Source: Oscillospiraceae bacterium
GTDB lineage: Bacteria > Bacillota > Clostridia > Oscillospirales > Oscillospiraceae
DNA length: 46,575 bases
Reading direction: 5' to 3'
Assembly: GCA_031290515.1 (NCBI GenBank)
Contig: JAITNK010000020.1
Location: forward strand, 1 to 46,575
Below are positions 33,691 to 44,415 of the stretch, piece by piece. The position numbers and the translations under genes are program-made. The stretch's first letter is position 1; every line of letters begins with the position of its first letter. The notes beneath the pieces were generated by a model. That model was given only the letters and a program-made list of their open reading frames with translations. It did not search any database and was not told the origin of the DNA.

Positions 33691-34911
33691 CTATTCCAGA
33701 ACCACCCTGCGGTAGCTCTTTTTGCCGCGCCGCACCACAATACCGGCGCGCAGCCCGTCCGCTCCGAACGTGCGCGCGGTATCCGTGATTTTCACGCCGT
33801 CAGCCTCAACCCCGCCCTGCTCGACCGCGCGCCGCGCTTCGGACCGCGAAGCGCACAGCCCGGACTTTGCGAGCAGTCCGAGAATATCGACCGCGCCGTC
33901 CGTCAGGTCGGATTCCGAGAGCGTCGTCGTCGGCATCTCCGCGGCTCCGCCGGAGGAGAACAGCGCGCGCGCCGTCTCAAGCGACTGCCGCGCCGCGTCG
34001 TCGCCGTGAACCTGTCCCGTGACCTCGAACGCGAGCGTCTCTTTTGCGGCGTTCAGCTGCGCGTCGCGCCACGACTCCATTTCCGAAATCTGTTCGAGCG
34101 GCAGAAAAGTCAGCATTTTGAGGCACTTAATCACGTCCGCGTCGCCGACGTTGCGCCAGTACTGGAAGAACTCGTAGGGCGAAGTTTTGTTCGCGTCGAG
34201 CCAGAGCGCGTTGCCCGCGGTCTTGCCCATTTTCACGCCGTTCGAGTCGGTGAGCAGCGTTATCGTCAGGCAGTGCGCGTCCTTTTGCAGCTTGCGGCGG
34301 ATAAGCTCCGTCCCCGCGAGCATATTCGACCACTGGTCGTCGCCGCCGCACTGGAGCGTACAGCCGTAACGCAGGAACAGCTCGTAAAAGTCGTACGCCT
34401 GCATAATCATATAGTTGAATTCGAGAAACGTCAGCCCTTTTTCCATACGGTTTTTGTAGCAGTCCGCCGTAAGCATACGGTTTACCGAGAAGTGCGCCCC
34501 GAAGTCGCGCAGAAAGTCGAGATAATTGAGGTTTCGCAGCCACTCTGCGTTGTTGGCGAGCAGTCCTTTCCCCTCGCCGAACTCGATGAACCGCGAGATT
34601 TGTTCGCGGATACGCTCGCAGTTTCCGTCGATGCGCTCGACCGTCATCATTGTACGCAGGTCCTGCCGCCCGGACGGGTCGCCGACCATTCCGGTGCCGC
34701 CGCCGGCGAGCGCAATCGCGGTGTTGCCCGCGGACTGCAAACGCTTCATAAGCGTCAGCGTGACGTAGTGCCCGGCGGTCAGGCTGTCCGCCGTCGGGTC
34801 GTAGCCGATGTAGAACGTCGCCCTGCCGTTGTCGATAAGTTCGCGGATTTGTGATTCGTCGCTCGTCTGCGCAACGAGTCCGCGAGCCTGAAGCTCTTCA
34901 AAAAGTGTCAT
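33691..34911 (-). CDS. tyrS: Tyrosine--tRNA ligase
   Basis: YIGYDPTADSLTAGHYVTL; MGKTAGNALWLD; start trimmed to 34911 downstream of aaaggag RBS. Confidence 0.96.
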   Translation of the reverse strand: MTLFEELQARGLVAQTSDESQIRELIDNGRATFYIGYDPTADSLTAGHYVTLTLMKRLQSAGNTAIALAGGGTGMVGDPSGRQDLRTMMTVERIDGNCERIREQISRFIEFGEGKGLLANNAEWLRNLNYLDFLRDFGAHFSVNRMLTADCYKNRMEKGLTFLEFNYMIMQAYDFYELFLRYGCTLQCGGDDQWSNMLAGTELIRRKLQKDAHCLTITLLTDSNGVKMGKTAGNALWLDANKTSPYEFFQYWRNVGDADVIKCLKMLTFLPLEQISEMESWRDAQLNAAKETLAFEVTGQVHGDDAARQSLETARALFSSGGAAEMPTTTLSESDLTDGAVDILGLLAKSGLCASRSEARRAVEQGGVEADGVKITDTARTFGADGLRAGIVVRRGKKSYRRVVLE

Positions 34912-34939
34912 TGTATGCTCCTTTTGTGGTTGAATTACG

Positions 34940-35012
34940 GGGCGGCGCGAGGAACGCGGTAACGCGCTTTTTTCGGGAAAATCCGCCGGTGGGACAGCTG
35001 CGAAAAGGCAGG
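34940..35012. repeat. Dispersed 'gcgcttttttcgggaaaa...gctgcgaaaaggc' repeat copy
   Basis: Resembles 41701-41775 (ttacg...gcttttttcgggaaa...gggaca...gcaaaaagcg). Confidence 0.55.
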
Positions 35013-35099
35013 TCTCGTCGCAGCGCGGTACGCAGCTGAGGATACATAGTACGCACACCGGCGAACGGAGTGCGGGAGGCTGGGCCGAACGGCGGATAA

Positions 35100-35364
35100 A
35101 TATAAAACGCCCGCGGGATATTATCCCGAGGACGCTTGTCAGCGCGGTACCACCTCAGTTTCGCGTTTCTTCGCAGAAACACGCTCGGCGGGTTAAGTGT
35201 GACCACTCTAACCCTTGCGCTGTAACGGGCGCAACCGTCGGAGCGTTTCCTCTCCGCCGCTCTTCGGACGTATTCGCGCGCGGTCAGCATACCGGCTTTC
35301 ACCGACCGCCGGCTCTCTGAATGCTGATACCGCAAGCTACTTTTTCCGCTTCGTCGCGTTTATT
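35100..35364 (-). promoter_or_regulatory. T-box leader upstream of tyrS
   Basis: Minus strand AGGTGGTACCGCG (35155-35143), terminator CGTCCTCGGGATaatATCCCGCGGGCGTTTTAT, AGAGAG and GGTGAAAG stem I-like motifs, possible UAC (Tyr) specifier at 35272-35270. Confidence 0.93.
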
Positions 35365-35406: not shown

Positions 35407-37110
35407 TTACGCGTTCCGTTTGCGCTTTTCGGCGGCGTTTATCATTTCCTCCGCGCTCGCGAGCGTCGTATCGGTGACGTTCTCGCCGCCGGTGAGCCGC
35501 GCGATTTCCGCGATACTGCCGAGCCGCTCGAGCCGCGTCACCTCGGTGTACGTCCTAAGTTCGCCGTTCACGGAGCGGGACGACTTGGAAATCTCGAAAT
35601 GCGTGTCCGCCATTGCCGCGATTTGCGGCAGGTGCGTAACGCACAGTACCTGACCTGCGCGCGAAATCGCCGACAGCTTTTCGCCGACGCGCTGCGCCGC
35701 AATGCCGGACACTCCCGCGTCGATTTCATCGTAGACCGAAACGCCGCGCGGCGTAATCTCCGAGAACACGGTCAAAAACGCGAGCATTATGCGTGAAAGC
35801 TCTCCGCCGGACGCGATTTTCGCGATTCGGCCCGGAGTTTCGCCCGCGTTCGCGGAAATCAGAAAGCGCACGTCCTCCGCGCCGTTTTCGGTGAGTGCGG
35901 CGTTTTTGACAAGCTCTGTCTCGAACCGCACATTCGGCATAGACAGCGCGGACAGCTCGCGCACCATACGGACGCGCAGTTCGTTCCCGGCTTCGGTTTT
36001 CGCCGCGGTGTAGTCCGCGGCGGCTTCCTCCGCGGCGGTAAGCAGCTCGCCGCGCCGCGCTTCGAGTTCGACCCGCCGCTCGTCGGACGTGTCAAGCTCC
36101 AGAAGCTCGTTTTTCGCGCTTTCGAGAAACGCGAGAGCCTCGGTCTCGTCGCCGTACTTCAGCGCGAGTTTGTTAAGCCGCTGCGCCCGAAGCTCCGCCG
36201 CGTCAAGCTCCTCCGGCGTGAAGTCGAACTCGGAGCGTATGCCGCGAAGCTCCTCGGCTACGTCCTCGGTTTCGAGCCGCACGTCGGTAAGCCGCCGCGC
36301 GAGAACCGCGAACCGCTCCGAATAGGCGGAAACGCCGCCGAGCGACGACTCCGCGTTCCGCAGCAGAGCCGCCGCGCCGTCCGAATCCTCGCCGCCGTAC
36401 AGCTCGAGGTACGCGCCGTCGAACGCGCCGGACAGCCGCGAGACGTTGCGGAGTATTTGCAGACGCTCGTCGAGCGCGGCGGACTCGCCGGGCGACGGCG
36501 CGGCGGACTCGATTTCGTCTATCTGCGAGCGGAGCAGGTCGGCGCGGAACCGTTTGTCGCGCTCGCCGCTTTTGATTTTTTCGAGTGCGCGTTCGTTTTC
36601 GCGAAGCGCGGCGAAAGACTCGCGGTAACGCTTTGCGCGCGCCGCGTAGCCTTCGGAGAAGCGTCCGCCGAAGCTGTCGAGCGCGCCGCCGTGAGCCGAC
36701 TCGTCAACGAGCCAGCCGCTGTCGTGCTGACCGTGTACGGCGATGAGCCGCGACGCGAGACTGCGGAGCTGCGTCACGGTAACGGGTACGCCGTTCACGC
36801 GCACCGTACTCTTGCCGTCCGCCGTGAGTCTGCGCGACAGCACGATTGTGCTGTCCTCGTCGATTTCGCTGTTCCGGAACCAGTCCGAAACGGAGGAATC
36901 GGAGGTGAACTCCGCCGTGACCGAGAGCGCGTCCTCGCCCTGCCGCACAAGGTCTTTCGAGACGCGTCCGCCCGCGACGCATATAATCGCGTCCACGACT
37001 ATGGATTTTCCGGCTCCGGTCTCGCCCGTAAGGACGTTCAGACCGCGCCCGAAGTCAATCTCCGCCTTGTCGATGAGCGCGAGATTGCGAATAGTAAGTG
37101 TTTCAAGCAT
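35407..37110 (-). CDS. recN: DNA repair protein RecN
   Basis: MLETLTIRNLALIDKAEIDFGRGLNVLTGETGAGKSIVVDA; DEIDAGVSG. Confidence 0.95.
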   Translation of the reverse strand: MLETLTIRNLALIDKAEIDFGRGLNVLTGETGAGKSIVVDAIICVAGGRVSKDLVRQGEDALSVTAEFTSDSSVSDWFRNSEIDEDSTIVLSRRLTADGKSTVRVNGVPVTVTQLRSLASRLIAVHGQHDSGWLVDESAHGGALDSFGGRFSEGYAARAKRYRESFAALRENERALEKIKSGERDKRFRADLLRSQIDEIESAAPSPGESAALDERLQILRNVSRLSGAFDGAYLELYGGEDSDGAAALLRNAESSLGGVSAYSERFAVLARRLTDVRLETEDVAEELRGIRSEFDFTPEELDAAELRAQRLNKLALKYGDETEALAFLESAKNELLELDTSDERRVELEARRGELLTAAEEAAADYTAAKTEAGNELRVRMVRELSALSMPNVRFETELVKNAALTENGAEDVRFLISANAGETPGRIAKIASGGELSRIMLAFLTVFSEITPRGVSVYDEIDAGVSGIAAQRVGEKLSAISRAGQVLCVTHLPQIAAMADTHFEISKSSRSVNGELRTYTEVTRLERLGSIAEIARLTGGENVTDTTLASAEEMINAAEKRKRNA

Positions 37111-37562
37111 TATCGCAGCAGATTCTCAATATCCGCGCAGAAGCGTTCGGCGGTCTCTTCGTCTTTCATCGCGAGGAACACGGTGTCGTCGCCGGCGACG
37201 GAGCCGACGAAGCCGGGGATTCCCATACCGTCGATTGCGGAGCTTGCAGCTCCCGCGAGTCCCGGCAGCGTCTTGACGACGACGAGGTTCCGCGCCGACG
37301 CGCTCGAAGTCACGCATTCGCGGAAGATACTGCGGAGCCGCGCCGTATTGTTGCGGTCTTCCGCGTTCATAACGGCGGCGTAACGGTACGAGCCTTTCGC
37401 GGTAAGCTCTTTTACAAGCCCGAGTTCTTTAATATCGCGCGAAACCGTCGCCTGCGTGGCGGCGAAGCCCGCGTCCCGGAGCGATTCGATAAGTCCGTGT
37501 TGGGTGACTATCTCGCGGTCTCCGATTATTTTAAGAATAGCGTCGTGTCTGCTCTGCTTCAT
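37110..37562 (-). CDS. argR: Arginine repressor
   Basis: MKQSRHDAILKIIGDREIVTQHGLIESLRDAGFAATQATVSRDIKELGLVK. Confidence 0.93.
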   Translation of the reverse strand: MKQSRHDAILKIIGDREIVTQHGLIESLRDAGFAATQATVSRDIKELGLVKELTAKGSYRYAAVMNAEDRNNTARLRSIFRECVTSSASARNLVVVKTLPGLAGAASSAIDGMGIPGFVGSVAGDDTVFLAMKDEETAERFCADIENLLR

Positions 37563-38485: not shown

Positions 38486-39285
38486 ACCGTTTCTCCTTCA
38501 AACGCGCTGTGCGCCGCGTTTACGACCGATTCCGCGGAGACTTCGGAAGCGCCCGGCGCGAAGCCGAGTTTCCCGAGAAATTCTATATTGCCCTCCGGAC
38601 CGCGAATCGGCGAGAACGTAAGTCCGGTAACAAAAAAACCGTTTTCCTCCGCGCCGCCGGTAAACGAGCGAAGCACGTCAATGTGCGTTTCCGCGTCGCG
38701 CACCACGCCGTTTTTACCGACGCGCCCGCGTCCGGCTTCAAACTGCGGCTTGACGAGACACACGCACAGCCCGCCCGGTTTCAGTATGCGCCGCACGGTC
38801 GGCAGAATCAGGCGGAGCGAGATAAACGACACGTCGGCGGTAACGAAGTCAACCGCCTCGCCGAGCGTTTCCGGCGGCATCGTACGCGCGTTAACGCGCT
38901 CGAGCGTGACGACGCGCGGGTCGGTCCGCAGACTCCAGGCGAGCTGTCCGTAGCCCACGTCAACGGCGTAGACCTTTGCCGCGCCGCGCTTCAGCATACA
39001 GTCAGTGAAGCCTCCGGTACTCGCGCCGATGTCCGCGCAGACGAGGTTTTCGACCGTCACACCGAATTCGACGAGAGCTTTTTCGAGCTTAAAGCCGCCG
39101 CGGCTGACGTATTTCATACCGCCGCGCACTTCCGGCTCCGCGTCCGCCGGAACCTGCTCGCCGGGCTTATCGACGCGCCGCCCTCCGATATAGACAAGCC
39201 CCGCCATAACGTACGCTTTCGCCCTTTCGCGGCTTTCGGCGAGTCCGCGTTCAAAGATGAGCGCGTCGATTCTCATTTTAGCCAT
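38482..39285 (-). CDS. tlyA: TlyA family rRNA 2'-O-methyltransferase paralog 2
   Basis: MRIDALIFERGLAESRERAKAYVMAGLVYI S4 domain; ADIGASTGGFTDCMLKRGAAKVYAVDVGYGQLAW. Confidence 0.93.
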   Translation of the reverse strand: MAKMRIDALIFERGLAESRERAKAYVMAGLVYIGGRRVDKPGEQVPADAEPEVRGGMKYVSRGGFKLEKALVEFGVTVENLVCADIGASTGGFTDCMLKRGAAKVYAVDVGYGQLAWSLRTDPRVVTLERVNARTMPPETLGEAVDFVTADVSFISLRLILPTVRRILKPGGLCVCLVKPQFEAGRGRVGKNGVVRDAETHIDVLRSFTGGAEENGFFVTGLTFSPIRGPEGNIEFLGKLGFAPGASEVSAESVVNAAHSAFEGETV

Positions 39286-41128
39286 TCGGCTCACCGGATA
39301 CGCCACATATCGCGTCCGCGACGCTTTCCGCGTCGATTTTGCAGTGCCGCCGCAGTTCCGCGACGCTGCCGCACGGTACCGGATTATCGCCGCAGTTCAG
39401 CAGTATCACGCGCTCCGGAAGCGTGCCGCGCACCGCGAGCGCCGCCGCGAGACGTTCGCCGACGCACCCCGCAGCCGCAACGTCCTCAAGTACGAGAAGT
39501 CCGCCGGTTTTCGACGCGGACTGCTCCGCGAGCGACGCGTCGAGCGGCGTGATTCGCAGCAGTTTCACGATTTCAATCTCAATGCCGCGCGCCGACAAAA
39601 GTTCCGCGGCTTCAAGCGCGACTTCCGTCATCGCGCCGTAAGTGACGACCGTGAAGCCGTTCCCGGAGCGGATAACCGCGTCCGAAACGCAGTCGCCGCC
39701 GAACGGAGCCGCGCCTTTAGGATAGCGAATCGCGACCGCGCCGCAGTCATTCGTAACGGCGTCGGAAAGCAGCCGCCGAAGCTCGCCGAAGCTCGCCGGA
39801 GCGTAAACGGACAGTCCGGGGACCGTCGCGAGGTAGGCGACGTCGTAAATCCCCTGATGCGTTTCGCCGTCGCCGGGGACAAGTCCCGCGCGGTCAATTG
39901 CGAAAACGGCTTTCGCGCCGGACAGCGCAATATCGTGTATCAGCATATCGTAGCCGCGCTGCAAAAACGTCGAATATACGGCGAAAACCGGAGTAACGCC
40001 GCCCGCGGCGAGTCCGGCGGCAAGCGTCACGGCGTGACCCTCCGAGATTCCGACGTCGAAGAAGCGGTCGGGGAAGCGTTCGGCGAAGCCGGAAAGCCCG
40101 GTGCCGGAAGCCATCGCCGCCGTAATTGCGGCAATGTTGCACCCGCCCTCCCGGAGCTTCGTAACCGTGTCGCCGAACACGGCGGAAAAAGTCTCCGCGG
40201 CGGGCTTCATTTTGCCGGAACCGAAGTCGGAAGGCGACACGCCGTGGTATTTGTCCGGCTCGGTTTCGCTCGGCGTATAGCCGCGCCCTTTCTGCGTCTT
40301 GACGTGCAGCAGGACCGGTTTACCCAGTTCGCGCGCCCAGCTTAAAACGCGGCACAGGCGCGGCACGTCGTGTCCGTCCACCGGACCGATGTACTCGAAG
40401 CCGAGTTCCTCAAACATACTGCAATGCAGCAGCGTGCGGCGCACGGCGGCTTTAATCCTGTGCGTCAGCGAGTAGATGAACCGCCCGCCGGGGAGCTTCG
40501 CCATAAGCGCGCGGTAACGTTTCTTGAAACGTATGTAGCTCGGTCGTATGCGCTCGCGCGAGAGGTACCGAGCGACGCCGCCGACGTTGCCGGAGATTGA
40601 CATTCCGTTGTCGTTCAGCACGACTATTATCGGTTCGCCGGACGCGCCCGCGTCGGACAACGCCTCGTACGCGAGACCTCCGGTGAGCGCGCCGTCGCCT
40701 ATAAGCGCGACGACGCTGTGCGTTCCGCCGGAGAGCGTCCGCGCCCTCGCGAGTCCGAGCGCGGCGGAGACCGAGCCGGAGGCGTGTCCCGCCGGGAACG
40801 CGTCGTACACGCTCTCCGAAGGCTTCGGGAAGCCGGACAGACCGCCGTATTTGCGGAGCGTGCCGAACCCGGGAAGTCTGCCGGTAAGCATTTTGTGCGC
40901 GTAGCTCTGGTGTCCCACGTCGAAAACGAGCCTGTCGCGCGAGAAGTCGAACACCCGGTGCAGCGCGACGGTAAGCTCCACCGCGCCGAGGTTCGACGCG
41001 AGATGTCCGCCGTTTTTCGATACCGCGGAGATTATCTCCCGGCGCAGCTCCGCGCACAGTTCGTCGATCTGCGCCGGCGGCATAGCCGCAAGCTCTTTCG
41101 CGGAGGAAAGCTCTTTCAGTACGCTCAT
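39278..41128 (-). CDS. dxs: 1-deoxy-D-xylulose-5-phosphate synthase
   Basis: SKNGGHLASNLGAVELTVALH; FDVGHQSYAHKMLTGR; start trimmed to 41128, overlapping oapA stop by 4 nt. Confidence 0.96.
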   Translation of the reverse strand: MSVLKELSSAKELAAMPPAQIDELCAELRREIISAVSKNGGHLASNLGAVELTVALHRVFDFSRDRLVFDVGHQSYAHKMLTGRLPGFGTLRKYGGLSGFPKPSESVYDAFPAGHASGSVSAALGLARARTLSGGTHSVVALIGDGALTGGLAYEALSDAGASGEPIIVVLNDNGMSISGNVGGVARYLSRERIRPSYIRFKKRYRALMAKLPGGRFIYSLTHRIKAAVRRTLLHCSMFEELGFEYIGPVDGHDVPRLCRVLSWARELGKPVLLHVKTQKGRGYTPSETEPDKYHGVSPSDFGSGKMKPAAETFSAVFGDTVTKLREGGCNIAAITAAMASGTGLSGFAERFPDRFFDVGISEGHAVTLAAGLAAGGVTPVFAVYSTFLQRGYDMLIHDIALSGAKAVFAIDRAGLVPGDGETHQGIYDVAYLATVPGLSVYAPASFGELRRLLSDAVTNDCGAVAIRYPKGAAPFGGDCVSDAVIRSGNGFTVVTYGAMTEVALEAAELLSARGIEIEIVKLLRITPLDASLAEQSASKTGGLLVLEDVAAAGCVGERLAAALAVRGTLPERVILLNCGDNPVPCGSVAELRRHCKIDAESVADAICGVSGEPNG

Positions 41129-41676
41129 TTGCGTTTCTTTCGCGGCGAGACGAAACGTATAATCCTGCCCACGCCGAGGATAATGAACCGCGACTTCTTC
41201 AGCGCAACGGACTTGCAGGCGGCTTTCCCGCCGATTGTCAGCCCCGTGACCGCGCCGGACACTATAAGCGCGACGGCGAGCTGACTGAACGCAAGGTTCG
41301 CCGACAGCCGCTCCGTGACTATCGCCGCCGTAGTGCCGGAGACTATTCCGGCGATGTCGCCCACAACGTCGTTGCAGACGCTCGAAACCTTTCCGGCGTT
41401 TCTGACGAGAGAAATCGCCTCGCGCGCGCCGCGCTCCCGGTGAGCCGCCATAGCGTGAAACGGAGCTTCTTTCGCGGACGTGACCGCTACGCCGACCATA
41501 TCGAACAGTACGCCCACCGAGATGAAGAGCAGCAGTATCAGGAACGCGACGGCGTACCCCGCGCGGGAGACGGCGCGCGTCGAAAACAAAGTAAACACGG
41601 TTGACAGAGCAACCGAGAACAGTACGATTTTGATAATCCAAGAGTTTCGCAATAGCTTGTTACCTATAGAAATCAA
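41125..41676 (-). CDS. oapA: Small multi-TM membrane protein, probable OLE-associated protein A
   Basis: 183 aa, several TM segments, FDMVGVAVTSAKEAPFHAMAAHRERGAREA; located between the OLE-like segment and dxs. TTG start is uncertain. Confidence 0.75.
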   Translation of the reverse strand: MISIGNKLLRNSWIIKIVLFSVALSTVFTLFSTRAVSRAGYAVAFLILLLFISVGVLFDMVGVAVTSAKEAPFHAMAAHRERGAREAISLVRNAGKVSSVCNDVVGDIAGIVSGTTAAIVTERLSANLAFSQLAVALIVSGAVTGLTIGGKAACKSVALKKSRFIILGVGRIIRFVSPRKKRK

Positions 41677-41789: not shown

Positions 41790-41834
41790 CTGTCGCCGAA
41801 TGTAATCAACTTTGTTGATTACATTCGGCGACAG
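41790..41834. other. Perfect 21-bp inverted repeat hairpin with 3-nt loop at the 3' end of the OLE-like segment
   Basis: ctgtcgccgaatgtaatcaac-ttt-gttgattacattcggcgacag; no T-run on the minus-strand exit side. Confidence 0.95.
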
Positions 41835-42354
41835 CGGACGAAGTAAATCTTACGGCTTAGGTCTGGCAGGTTTCCCCCGGGTTAACCCATCGTTGCCGAC
41901 TGGGCGGTTTCCCTTTAATCTCCCGTCCGGCGCATTGCTGACGCCGTCGCCCGATCACCACTTAGTCCGTACTGCAATCCATCGTCCGCCTGAGCGCAAG
42001 CTCAACAGCCTAGTCGTTTTCCGAAACAGTCCGTCCGTTCCTTTATCCTCTTTTGCAAGACGTATTTCAAGAAGCAATCGGCTGCGCCCCGCCGTACGCG
42101 CGGGACGCGGCTTAAGTTCTCCTATCCGCACGCCTCACTCAAGGCAGGCTACTCCGCGCACAGCTCGCATAAAGCGTTTGCACCGCAACGCGGGTTTCAC
42201 AGACCGTTTAAGCGGTCTGTCCTGACACGTAAGCAATCCGAAAAATCTGTCGCCCACGAAATCAGGTCTCCGCACGGGCAGGGTCGGGGTCCCTATGCCA
42301 TTAGGAATCGCCCTACTCCGCGCAGGTATTACGCAGCAATATCTGCAAGATATA

Positions 42355-42432
42355 ATCGCTCGGTCGCGCAAAGCGACTCCCGCCGCTGCGTGTCCGCAAG
42401 CTCGCGCGGTGAACGCATCTGCGGGTGCGTAG
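42355..42432 (+). repeat. Dispersed GC-rich repeat copy located inside the OLE-like segment
   Basis: cgctcggtcgcgcaaagcgactcccgccgctgcgtgtccgcaagctcgcgcggtgaacgcatctgcgggtgcg aligns by eye along its length with the copy at 1-72. Confidence 0.7.
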
Positions 42433-42654
42433 CCGGTGCGCCCGCTCTCCGCGCTGTCGGAGGGCAGGGATGAAAATCCTGCTGATATTGCCGCGCAATA
42501 CCTCCCCCCAGCAACCACCCCGGACTGGGCGTCCAAAGCAGACACAAGGGGCTTCATCGGTGTGCCGAACAGAGGATTTTTAGGCCCTCCCTCGGGAACG
42601 GGGGATCTGACTGAGGATACTGCGTCGCCGAATGGGGTTGGGGTTATCAGCCGT

Positions 42655-42780
42655 TTGGTCGGGCGAAGACTCCCGCGCGGGGGAACGCGCCTGCGGTTTA
42701 TTAGCCGCTTGGTCGGCAAAGCCGCCCTGCGCTCCGTGCTCAAAAGCTCGCACGTGGAACGCGCCTGCGGGCGCGGTGCC
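42655..42780 (+). repeat. Two partial or complete copies of the dispersed GC-rich repeat, immediately upstream of the OLE-like segment
   Basis: gtttggtcgggcgaagactcccgcgcgggggaacgcgcctgcgg and gcttggtcggcaaagccgccctgcgctccgtgctcaaaagctcgcacgtggaacgcgcctgcgggcgcggtg. Confidence 0.75.
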
Positions 42781-42794
42781 GTGACTTGCCGCTC

Positions 42795-43106
42795 GCGGAC
42801 AATACCGCAGGCGCGAAGTGCCGTGGTGGTATATAGTCTTGAGCAGACCCGAAGGGCTTTGCCCGGCGGTCTGCGGACAATACCGCAGGCACGAAGTGCC
42901 GTTGTGGTATAAAGTCTTGAGCAGACCCGAAGGGCTTCGCCCGGCGGTCTGCGGACAATACCGCAGGCACGAAGTGCCGTTGTGGTATAAAGTCCTGAGC
43001 AGACCCGAAGGGCTTCGCCCGGCGGTCTGCGGACAATACCGCAGGCACGGAGTGCCGTTGCGGTATATAATCTTGAGCAGACCCAAAGGGCTTCGCCCGA
43101 CGGTCT
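42795..43106. repeat. Four tandem 78-bp units, each with two hairpins
   Basis: 'gcggac' unit boundaries at 42795, 42873, 42951, 43029, 43107 (exactly 78 bp each); hairpins ATACCgcaGGCACgaaGTGCCgttgtGGTAT and CAGACCcgaaGGGCttcGCCCggcGGTCTG. Confidence 0.95.
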
Positions 43107-43112
43107 GCGGAC

Positions 43113-43140
43113 ATTATATCATAAATATTCATAATTGCAA
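43113..43140 (-). promoter_or_regulatory. Candidate promoter reading into the 78-bp array and the OLE-like segment
   Basis: Minus: TTGCAA (43140-43135) -16- TATAAT (43118-43113) in an AT-rich patch. Confidence 0.6.
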
Positions 43141-43273: not shown

Positions 43274-44161
43274 CTAATTCTGCCTGTTTGCGAGCGTGTT
43301 CGCGATATACGTCAGCATCCCGCCGTCGTCGAACACGCCGCGCACCGTTTCGCGCGCGGTATACGTCTGCTCCGCGATGAATTTTTCGCACTCTTCGCGC
43401 GGCAGAACCGACGCGAACGTCGCTTTATTGTTCCGCGCGTCCGCGCCGGACGCTTTCCCGAGCGGCGCGGCGGAACCGTACCTGTCGAGCAAATCGTCGC
43501 GAATCTGAAACGCGAGTCCGACACACTGCGCGTAAATCCTCGCGGCGCGCTCACGCTCCGGCGAAGCCCCGCCCGCGACCGCGCCGATGAGGCACGCCGC
43601 CTCGATAAGCGACGCGGTTTTCATATGGTGAAGCCGGTACAAGTCCTGCAATTCCGGATTATTGTTTGATTCAAGCTCCATATCGAGCGTCTGCCCGCCG
43701 CAGATTCCGGCGGGACCCGCCGCCTCCGCGAGAATCCGTCCCGCGCGCACGGCTATACCGGCGGGGAGACCCGAGCCGAGCAGCTTCTCAAACGCGAGCG
43801 CCTGAAGCGCGTCGCCTGCGAGTACGGCTTTCCACTCGCCGAAACGCTTGTGGTTAGACGGCTGTCCGCGACGCTCGTCGCCGTCGTCCATACAGGGGAG
43901 GTCGTCGTGAATCAGCGAATAAGTGTGCAGAAGCTCGACGGCGCAGGCGGCGTCAAGCACGCCGTCCTCGCCGCCGCCGACGGCGGAGCAAAACGTCAGC
44001 GTCAGCAGCGGACGGATTCGCTTGCCGCCGGCGGCGACGCTGTACCGCATCGCTTCGTAGAGCGAAACGTCGCTCCGCTTGTCGAAATACGACGCGAGCC
44101 GCGCCTCGACGAGCTTCGTCAGACGCTTTGCGTTTTTTTCGCAGTCAATCGTTTTTTCCAC
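43274..44161 (-). CDS. ispA: Polyprenyl synthetase (farnesyl/geranylgeranyl diphosphate synthase family)
   Basis: HDDLPCMDDGDERRGQPSNHKRFGE and FQIRDDLLD aspartate-rich motifs; GTG start at 44161. Confidence 0.94.
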   Translation of the reverse strand: MEKTIDCEKNAKRLTKLVEARLASYFDKRSDVSLYEAMRYSVAAGGKRIRPLLTLTFCSAVGGGEDGVLDAACAVELLHTYSLIHDDLPCMDDGDERRGQPSNHKRFGEWKAVLAGDALQALAFEKLLGSGLPAGIAVRAGRILAEAAGPAGICGGQTLDMELESNNNPELQDLYRLHHMKTASLIEAACLIGAVAGGASPERERAARIYAQCVGLAFQIRDDLLDRYGSAAPLGKASGADARNNKATFASVLPREECEKFIAEQTYTARETVRGVFDDGGMLTYIANTLANRQN

Positions 44162-44163
44162 CG

Positions 44164-44415
44164 CTATTCCCCGAGAGCGAACTGCTCTTCGACGGGTTCG
44201 GAGTCCCCGCCTTTCGAGAGCCGCACGACTTTCTGTTCGGCGGATACGAGCTGCTCGCGGCACGTTTTGACGAGTCCCGCGCCCTCTTCAAAAAGCGCGA
44301 GCGAAACGTCGAGCGCGGCGGAGCCGGACTCGAGTGCGCGGACTATTTCCTCCAGCCGGAGCATCTTTTCCTCAAACGCGGGGGATTTTGCGGATTCCTT
44401 TTTCGTCGCCATCAT
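44164..44415 (-). CDS. xseB: Exodeoxyribonuclease VII small subunit
   Basis: SPAFEEKMLRLEEIVRALESGSAALDVSLALFEEGAGLVKTCREQL. Confidence 0.93.
   Translation of the reverse strand: MMATKKESAKSPAFEEKMLRLEEIVRALESGSAALDVSLALFEEGAGLVKTCREQLVSAEQKVVRLSKGGDSEPVEEQFALGE

Follow-up and report, generated by a model that had tools for sequence, protein, structure and literature searches.

The segment at positions 41812-42644 on the minus strand of a 46,575-nucleotide stretch from an Oscillospiraceae bacterium (here called the window, meaning the whole of the DNA that was analysed) is a genuine OLE RNA, as a first-pass annotation had interpreted it. It is a variant worth recording for its J5/6 helix subtype, for its length of 833 nt with a repeat inside, and because OapC is probably absent from the genome. 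We are nearly certain that it is a functional OLE RNA, working as OLEs are thought to, with a J5/6 helix that absorbed a genomic repeat.

Identity and gene neighbourhood

With cmscan, the Rfam OLE model RF01071 matches the minus strand from 42644 to 41812 at 316.6 bits (E=2e-89; gathering cut-off 50 bits). The alignment covers the full length of the model (1-616), and a score of this size over the whole model is a structure signal far beyond chance. The first-pass annotation had called an OLE RNA gene from the letters and had pointed to this same minus-strand search, whose significant result bears it out. Its span of 41790-42640 was a few bases off that of the model; the bases 41790-41811 lie outside the model and belong to a perfect 21-bp inverted repeat, of which they form the distal arm. 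It had also seen no credible coding sequence, and the open reading frames across the segment indeed have no Pfam match (202 aa at 42135-42743 and 168 aa at 42580-43086), which together with the RNA match rules out a protein-coding segment. A second OLE copy is excluded as well, with one RF01071 match in the whole genome as searched (1.96 Mb, 164 contigs, 95.6% complete). None of 14 control genomes matched the model.

Most relatives have an OLE of 620-700 nt. In the sample of the same family 43 of 151 genomes carry OLE, so that membership here is ordinary; the named OLE-bearing relatives are mostly Oscillospiraceae, including Papillibacter, Sporobacter and Oscillibacter. The Bacillota of GTDB have already been surveyed for OLE (PMC11332333), and given that survey and the 43 genomes the host range seen here is not new.

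The surroundings are as had been described, with a segment of about 800 nt between ispA and a gene for a small membrane protein followed by dxs, all on the minus strand. The main features are:

43274-44263, minus strand: ispA, polyprenyl synthetase (polyprenyl_synt, E 1e-55)
41812-42644, minus strand: OLE RNA, full-length RF01071 match, single copy in the genome
41125-41676, minus strand: oapA, 183 aa, TTG start as listed (weak CNNM-like match and orthologues in relatives)
39278-41164, minus strand: dxs, 1-deoxy-D-xylulose-5-phosphate synthase (DXP_synthase_N, E 6e-107)
37110-37562, minus strand: argR (Arg_repressor_C, E 3e-22)

The ispA coordinates are those of the longest open reading frame, and the true start is probably inside it. 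In order of transcription the genes on this strand are nusB, xseA, xseB, ispA, a repeat-filled gap, OLE, oapA, dxs, an FtsJ-like rRNA methyltransferase with an S4 domain (TlyA-like), NAD kinase, argR and recN. It is worth noting that argR belongs to the same cluster as OLE and lies five genes downstream of it; ArgR is named as an unpublished OLE-binding partner in PMC12054373, and for this reason the argR-containing neighbourhood may be functional. Apart from OLE, Rfam finds a single feature in the window, a T-box leader (35125-35363, minus strand, 121 bits, E 2e-26) adjoining a downstream open reading frame at 33691-35058, the sequence of which reads as a tyrosyl-tRNA synthetase, an ordinary arrangement.

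An extra helix in J5/6

The spacings between anchors along the RNA match those of relatives except in the segment after the P5.1 loop, and anchors C to D are 262 nt apart compared with commonly 80-105 nt in relatives. In the cmscan alignments of relatives the additional bases fall between P5 and P6, which puts them in J5/6, and window folds agree. They form the following feature:

42324-42503, minus strand: extra J5/6 hairpin, 180 nt, defined by anchors, cmscan insert, folds and covariation of the outer 6 bp

The hairpin (fold z -5.6) is an insert in RF01071 and absent from the Rfam consensus. A hairpin is found at this place in 89 of 104 loci examined, where it is mostly shorter, and the other 15 have a plain J5/6 of 14 nt (GGGUUAAGG...). 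Its edges are constant, with the boundary GG(G/A)-A...U-GC, and in its edges the base of the hairpin here (AGGUAUU/AAUACCU) agrees with relatives.

The outer six pairs of the hairpin covary across relatives; at pair 2, for example, 35 of 72 sequences have A-U and 33 have G-C. Compared with 1000 shuffles, which do not correct for relatedness, 95% of cells are standard-paired (shuffle maximum 83%) and there are 80 two-sided changes (shuffle maximum 37). Restricting the comparison to the 34 distinct stems gives 93% standard pairs (shuffle maximum 80%) and 44 two-sided changes (shuffle maximum 23), and several independent pair types remain. On the OapA tree, the state without a helix requires 4 changes compared with 14.2 when shuffled, and a single gain of the helix was rejected, since that state is clustered and yet shows 4 changes and not one event. 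The available text of the OLE literature, figures aside, makes no mention of an extra J5/6 helix. We give roughly even chances to the idea that the Oscillospiraceae OLE is a structural subtype with an added, covarying J5/6 helix, in which J5/6 accepts insertions of up to 180 nt, dispersed repeats included, and keeps the conserved core, and that the particle of the present lineage manages with no YbxF-type OapC.

Some other loci in the sample are also unusual. Another long OLE (L034:1-841) has 841 nt and is truncated at the contig start; its extra length is mostly elsewhere, in inserted hairpins between anchors D and E (243 nt) and between H and I. For three loci (L042, L043 and L044, on contigs C51 and C227 of genome G048 and contig C265 of G143) the OLE matches are split over contigs or pieces, and these are probably assembly breaks in two low-completeness genomes.

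Dispersed repeats in and upstream of the RNA

The middle of the J5/6 hairpin is a copy of a dispersed repeat, and the gap between OLE and ispA is filled with repeats:

42357-42435, minus strand: dispersed-repeat copy inside the J5/6 hairpin (core), 45 genome matches including itself
42646-42780, minus strand: further copies of the same repeat family, one truncated, abutting the OLE 5' end
42795-43113, minus strand: 78-nt tandem array, 4.1 copies, 95% (TRF score 561)

The ~80-nt repeat within the RNA has 44 other matches in its own genome at E<=0.01, of which 15 copies were aligned, and some other copies align over 42350-42460. A genome of the same genus, the nearest relative, has a J5/6 hairpin of 20 nt with no repeat, from which it appears that the repeat either entered the hairpin here or enlarged it.

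The region between ispA and OLE has 53 matches in the genome, and the 78-nt unit is found, as such or in related copies, about 50 times. Some copies of the 78-nt repeat begin at a TGATATAATG edge, and this repeat may therefore carry a promoter-like -10 element. A native OLE promoter displaced by repeats was also considered. There is a TTGCAA-16-TATAAT arrangement at 43140-43113, the -10 of which sits at the repeat edge; other repeat copies start at about the same base, so that an assignment as the OLE promoter is not justified.

The terminal helix and the 3' end

The two ends of the RNA are complementary over 11 nt, exactly as had been noticed in the first pass, and this complementarity is helix P1. 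Its sequence here differs from that of relatives, and its 3' arm overlaps a strong hairpin:

42624-42634, minus strand: P1 5' arm CATTCGGCGAC, 11-nt exact complement to 41822-41832
41822-41832, minus strand: P1 3' arm GTCGCCGAATG, pairing with 42634-42624
41790-41834, minus strand: perfect 21-bp inverted repeat with a 3-nt loop, overlapping the P1 3' arm

The inverted repeat folds at -36.3 kcal/mol (z -10.5). As the P1 3' arm is the first half of it, P1 and the hairpin are mutually exclusive. It is probably a 3'-end or processing hairpin, either a terminator or an RNase III site; it has no U-tract, which makes cutting by RNase III as likely as termination. A dispersed element was rejected here, as a genome search for a second full copy of the palindrome returned only itself. 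Terminator-like hairpins are found at the same place in eight relatives (L016, L036, L054, L057, L060, L067, L085 and L087), several of them 10-19 bp long and overlapping P1 or just after it. In one of these (L016), some 10-55 bases beyond the conserved GATTTAC near the 3' end of OLE, the P1 3' arm is part of a 19-bp stem with a U-tract behind it, and P1 formation and termination would compete there as is suspected in the window.

A draft assembly of 164 contigs from a repeat-rich genome might be thought to have produced both the insert and the palindrome, the more so as the palindrome is perfect. The insert, however, occupies only the tip of its hairpin, and the base is an exact match to relatives, an arrangement not expected from a mis-join. 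The genes on either side are continuous, and other hairpins occupy the same 3' site in relatives, so that we regard artefacts of assembly as extremely improbable.

Protein partners

The gene next to OLE encodes OapA, by family comparison and by motif, in agreement with the first-pass annotation. The protein has a weak match to the CNNM domain (E 9e-4), a likeness described for OapA in PMC11332333. Its DxxxD motif is NDVVGD (residues 102-107), D103 and D107 are invariant in 113 sequences, and oapA orthologues adjoin OLE in relatives. A predicted fold of OapA has reportedly been published already.

The first pass had also proposed looking for OapB and OapC, and of these OapB was found, elsewhere in the genome, and OapC was not. 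The Pfam KOW model returned only NusG and L24, and OapB was therefore sought by gene order and confirmed against PDB. It is a protein of 120 aa at L134:6913-7275, between map and infA, to which Pfam and NCBIfam assign no name; the top PDB match is OapB itself (7k9b, E 4e-5 over 79 residues), followed by one with E 0.6. The genome also encodes bS21. No CNNM/MpfA protein was found in the genome at E 0.001, as expected given that the transporter MpfA is reported to be anticorrelated with OLE (PMC11332333).

In the case of OapC, a YbxF-type L7Ae protein, there is no PF01248 match in the genome at E<=0.001. The sole weaker match (E 0.0013) is a protein beside nusA and a YlxR-type gene, and this position makes it YlxQ-type. 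No L7Ae gene precedes rpsL, where recR is found instead. OapC is thus probably missing, going by the sequence of an assembly that is 95.6% complete, at which level absence is not proven. OapC is a typical OLE partner and not a strictly defining one, though it is essential for OLE function in H. halodurans.

An independent function of the J5/6 hairpin was also considered, for instance that in lineages lacking OapC it takes the place of the OapC-stabilised k-turn and keeps the junction rigid. Its outer helix is conserved in boundary and covaries, J5/6 is among the strands proposed for the OapC k-turn in H. halodurans (PMC9723947), and no YbxF-type OapC was found in this genome. Against this, the k-turn in the cryo-EM work lies between J4a/5 and J6/7 and not at J5/6 (PMC12286853). 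Most relatives that bear the helix also have an L7Ae-family protein, although the PF01248 search mixes YbxF and YlxQ. On balance a role of this kind is unlikely.

Constraint and decay

Among 95 relatives there are 174 columns that are at least 99% conserved, and all 174 are kept here, which makes the RNA look functional, diverged but constrained, and not decayed. The loops that form the dimer contacts in cryo-EM work (L4, L5.1 and L6; PMC12286853 and PMC12265935) are all present, with an A-rich L4, GACGCCCAGTC in L5.1 and AATGGCAT in L6. At columns at least 95% conserved, 13 of 256 are changed, the second most in the comparison (rank 95 of 96), and the bit score is the lowest among the full-length OLE matches in the family sample. 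With these two observations some relaxation is possible.

A stronger version of this would be an OLE on its way to becoming a pseudogene, with repeats invading both promoter region and RNA and OapC lost. Repeats do fill the ispA-OLE gap and occur within the RNA, OapC was not found in the genome, and the low score and the changed columns point the same way. The near-invariant columns are nevertheless intact, P1 retains 11 exact pairs, oapA is intact including its invariant residues, and OapB and bS21 are present. At the 95% columns the OLE of the same genus, which has no repeat, is changed almost as often (10), and the changes thus look like divergence of the lineage. Decay is accordingly rated as very unlikely, and a functional RNA remains the preferred reading.

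Comparison with known OLE RNAs

Compared with the full-length OLE of Halalkalibacterium halodurans and Clostridium acetobutylicum, the RNA has the same full-length model match, the same conserved loops and junctions, the P1 to P13 region and the same ispA-ole-oapA-dxs neighbourhood, and OapA, OapB and bS21 are present and MpfA absent. It differs in having 833 nt instead of about 600, in the extra 180-nt J5/6 hairpin with a dispersed repeat, and in the negative search for OapC. PMC11332333 describes two sub-types, OLE variant 1 (TANB77) and variant 2 (RF39), that differ in stem length and in missing Oap proteins; they are shortened, with P7-P9 reduced or P7-P8 lost, whereas the OLE here is lengthened at J5/6. 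The features of the shortened variants, with P7-P9 reduced or missing and a changed P13 end, were not found here: the distal regions and the P13 loop (CGGCAACG) are present, and the spacing of anchors E to J is within the range of relatives. Other Oscillospiraceae OLEs (G105/L032, L045-L049, Sporobacter, Oscillibacter) have the same J5/6 helix boundary and covarying outer pairs, but their helix is usually about 15-30 nt and at the longest about 60-105 nt, compared with 180 nt here.

Dispersed repeats in structured RNAs are known from the Rickettsia palindromic elements. As in those, a functional RNA tolerates a short dispersed repeat in one of its peripheral hairpins, although both the repeat and the class of RNA are different. 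We know of no OLE example with an internal dispersed repeat.

How the particle may work

The 5' domain (P3-P9) would fold and dimerise, OapA from the gene next door would anchor the particle at the membrane, OapB would bind P13, and the particle would tune growth under stress. Dimerisation, the place at the membrane and the role in stress are carried over from other species. The extra J5/6 helix would sit at the multi-helix junction, on the outer side of the 5' domain and clear of the dimer contacts. According to PMC12286853 the helices come together at their outer ends in a five-way junction, which lies apart from the dimer interface, and from this position the helix would point outward. It would then tolerate changes in length, which would explain why it varies so widely in the family, and here it would have absorbed the dispersed ~80-nt repeat, presumably a neutral passenger. 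The 21-bp hairpin would set the 3' end of OLE by termination or by RNase III and so separate OLE from the oapA-dxs mRNA.

OLE is, to our knowledge, among the largest conserved bacterial RNAs for which no biochemical activity is known. The covarying J5/6 helix and the natural 180-nt insertion mark a permissive site on the OLE particle, which could take tags or aptamers for use in pull-down, imaging or cryo-EM. As this lineage apparently retains OLE together with OapA and OapB but not OapC, it also bears on the question of which partners are required.
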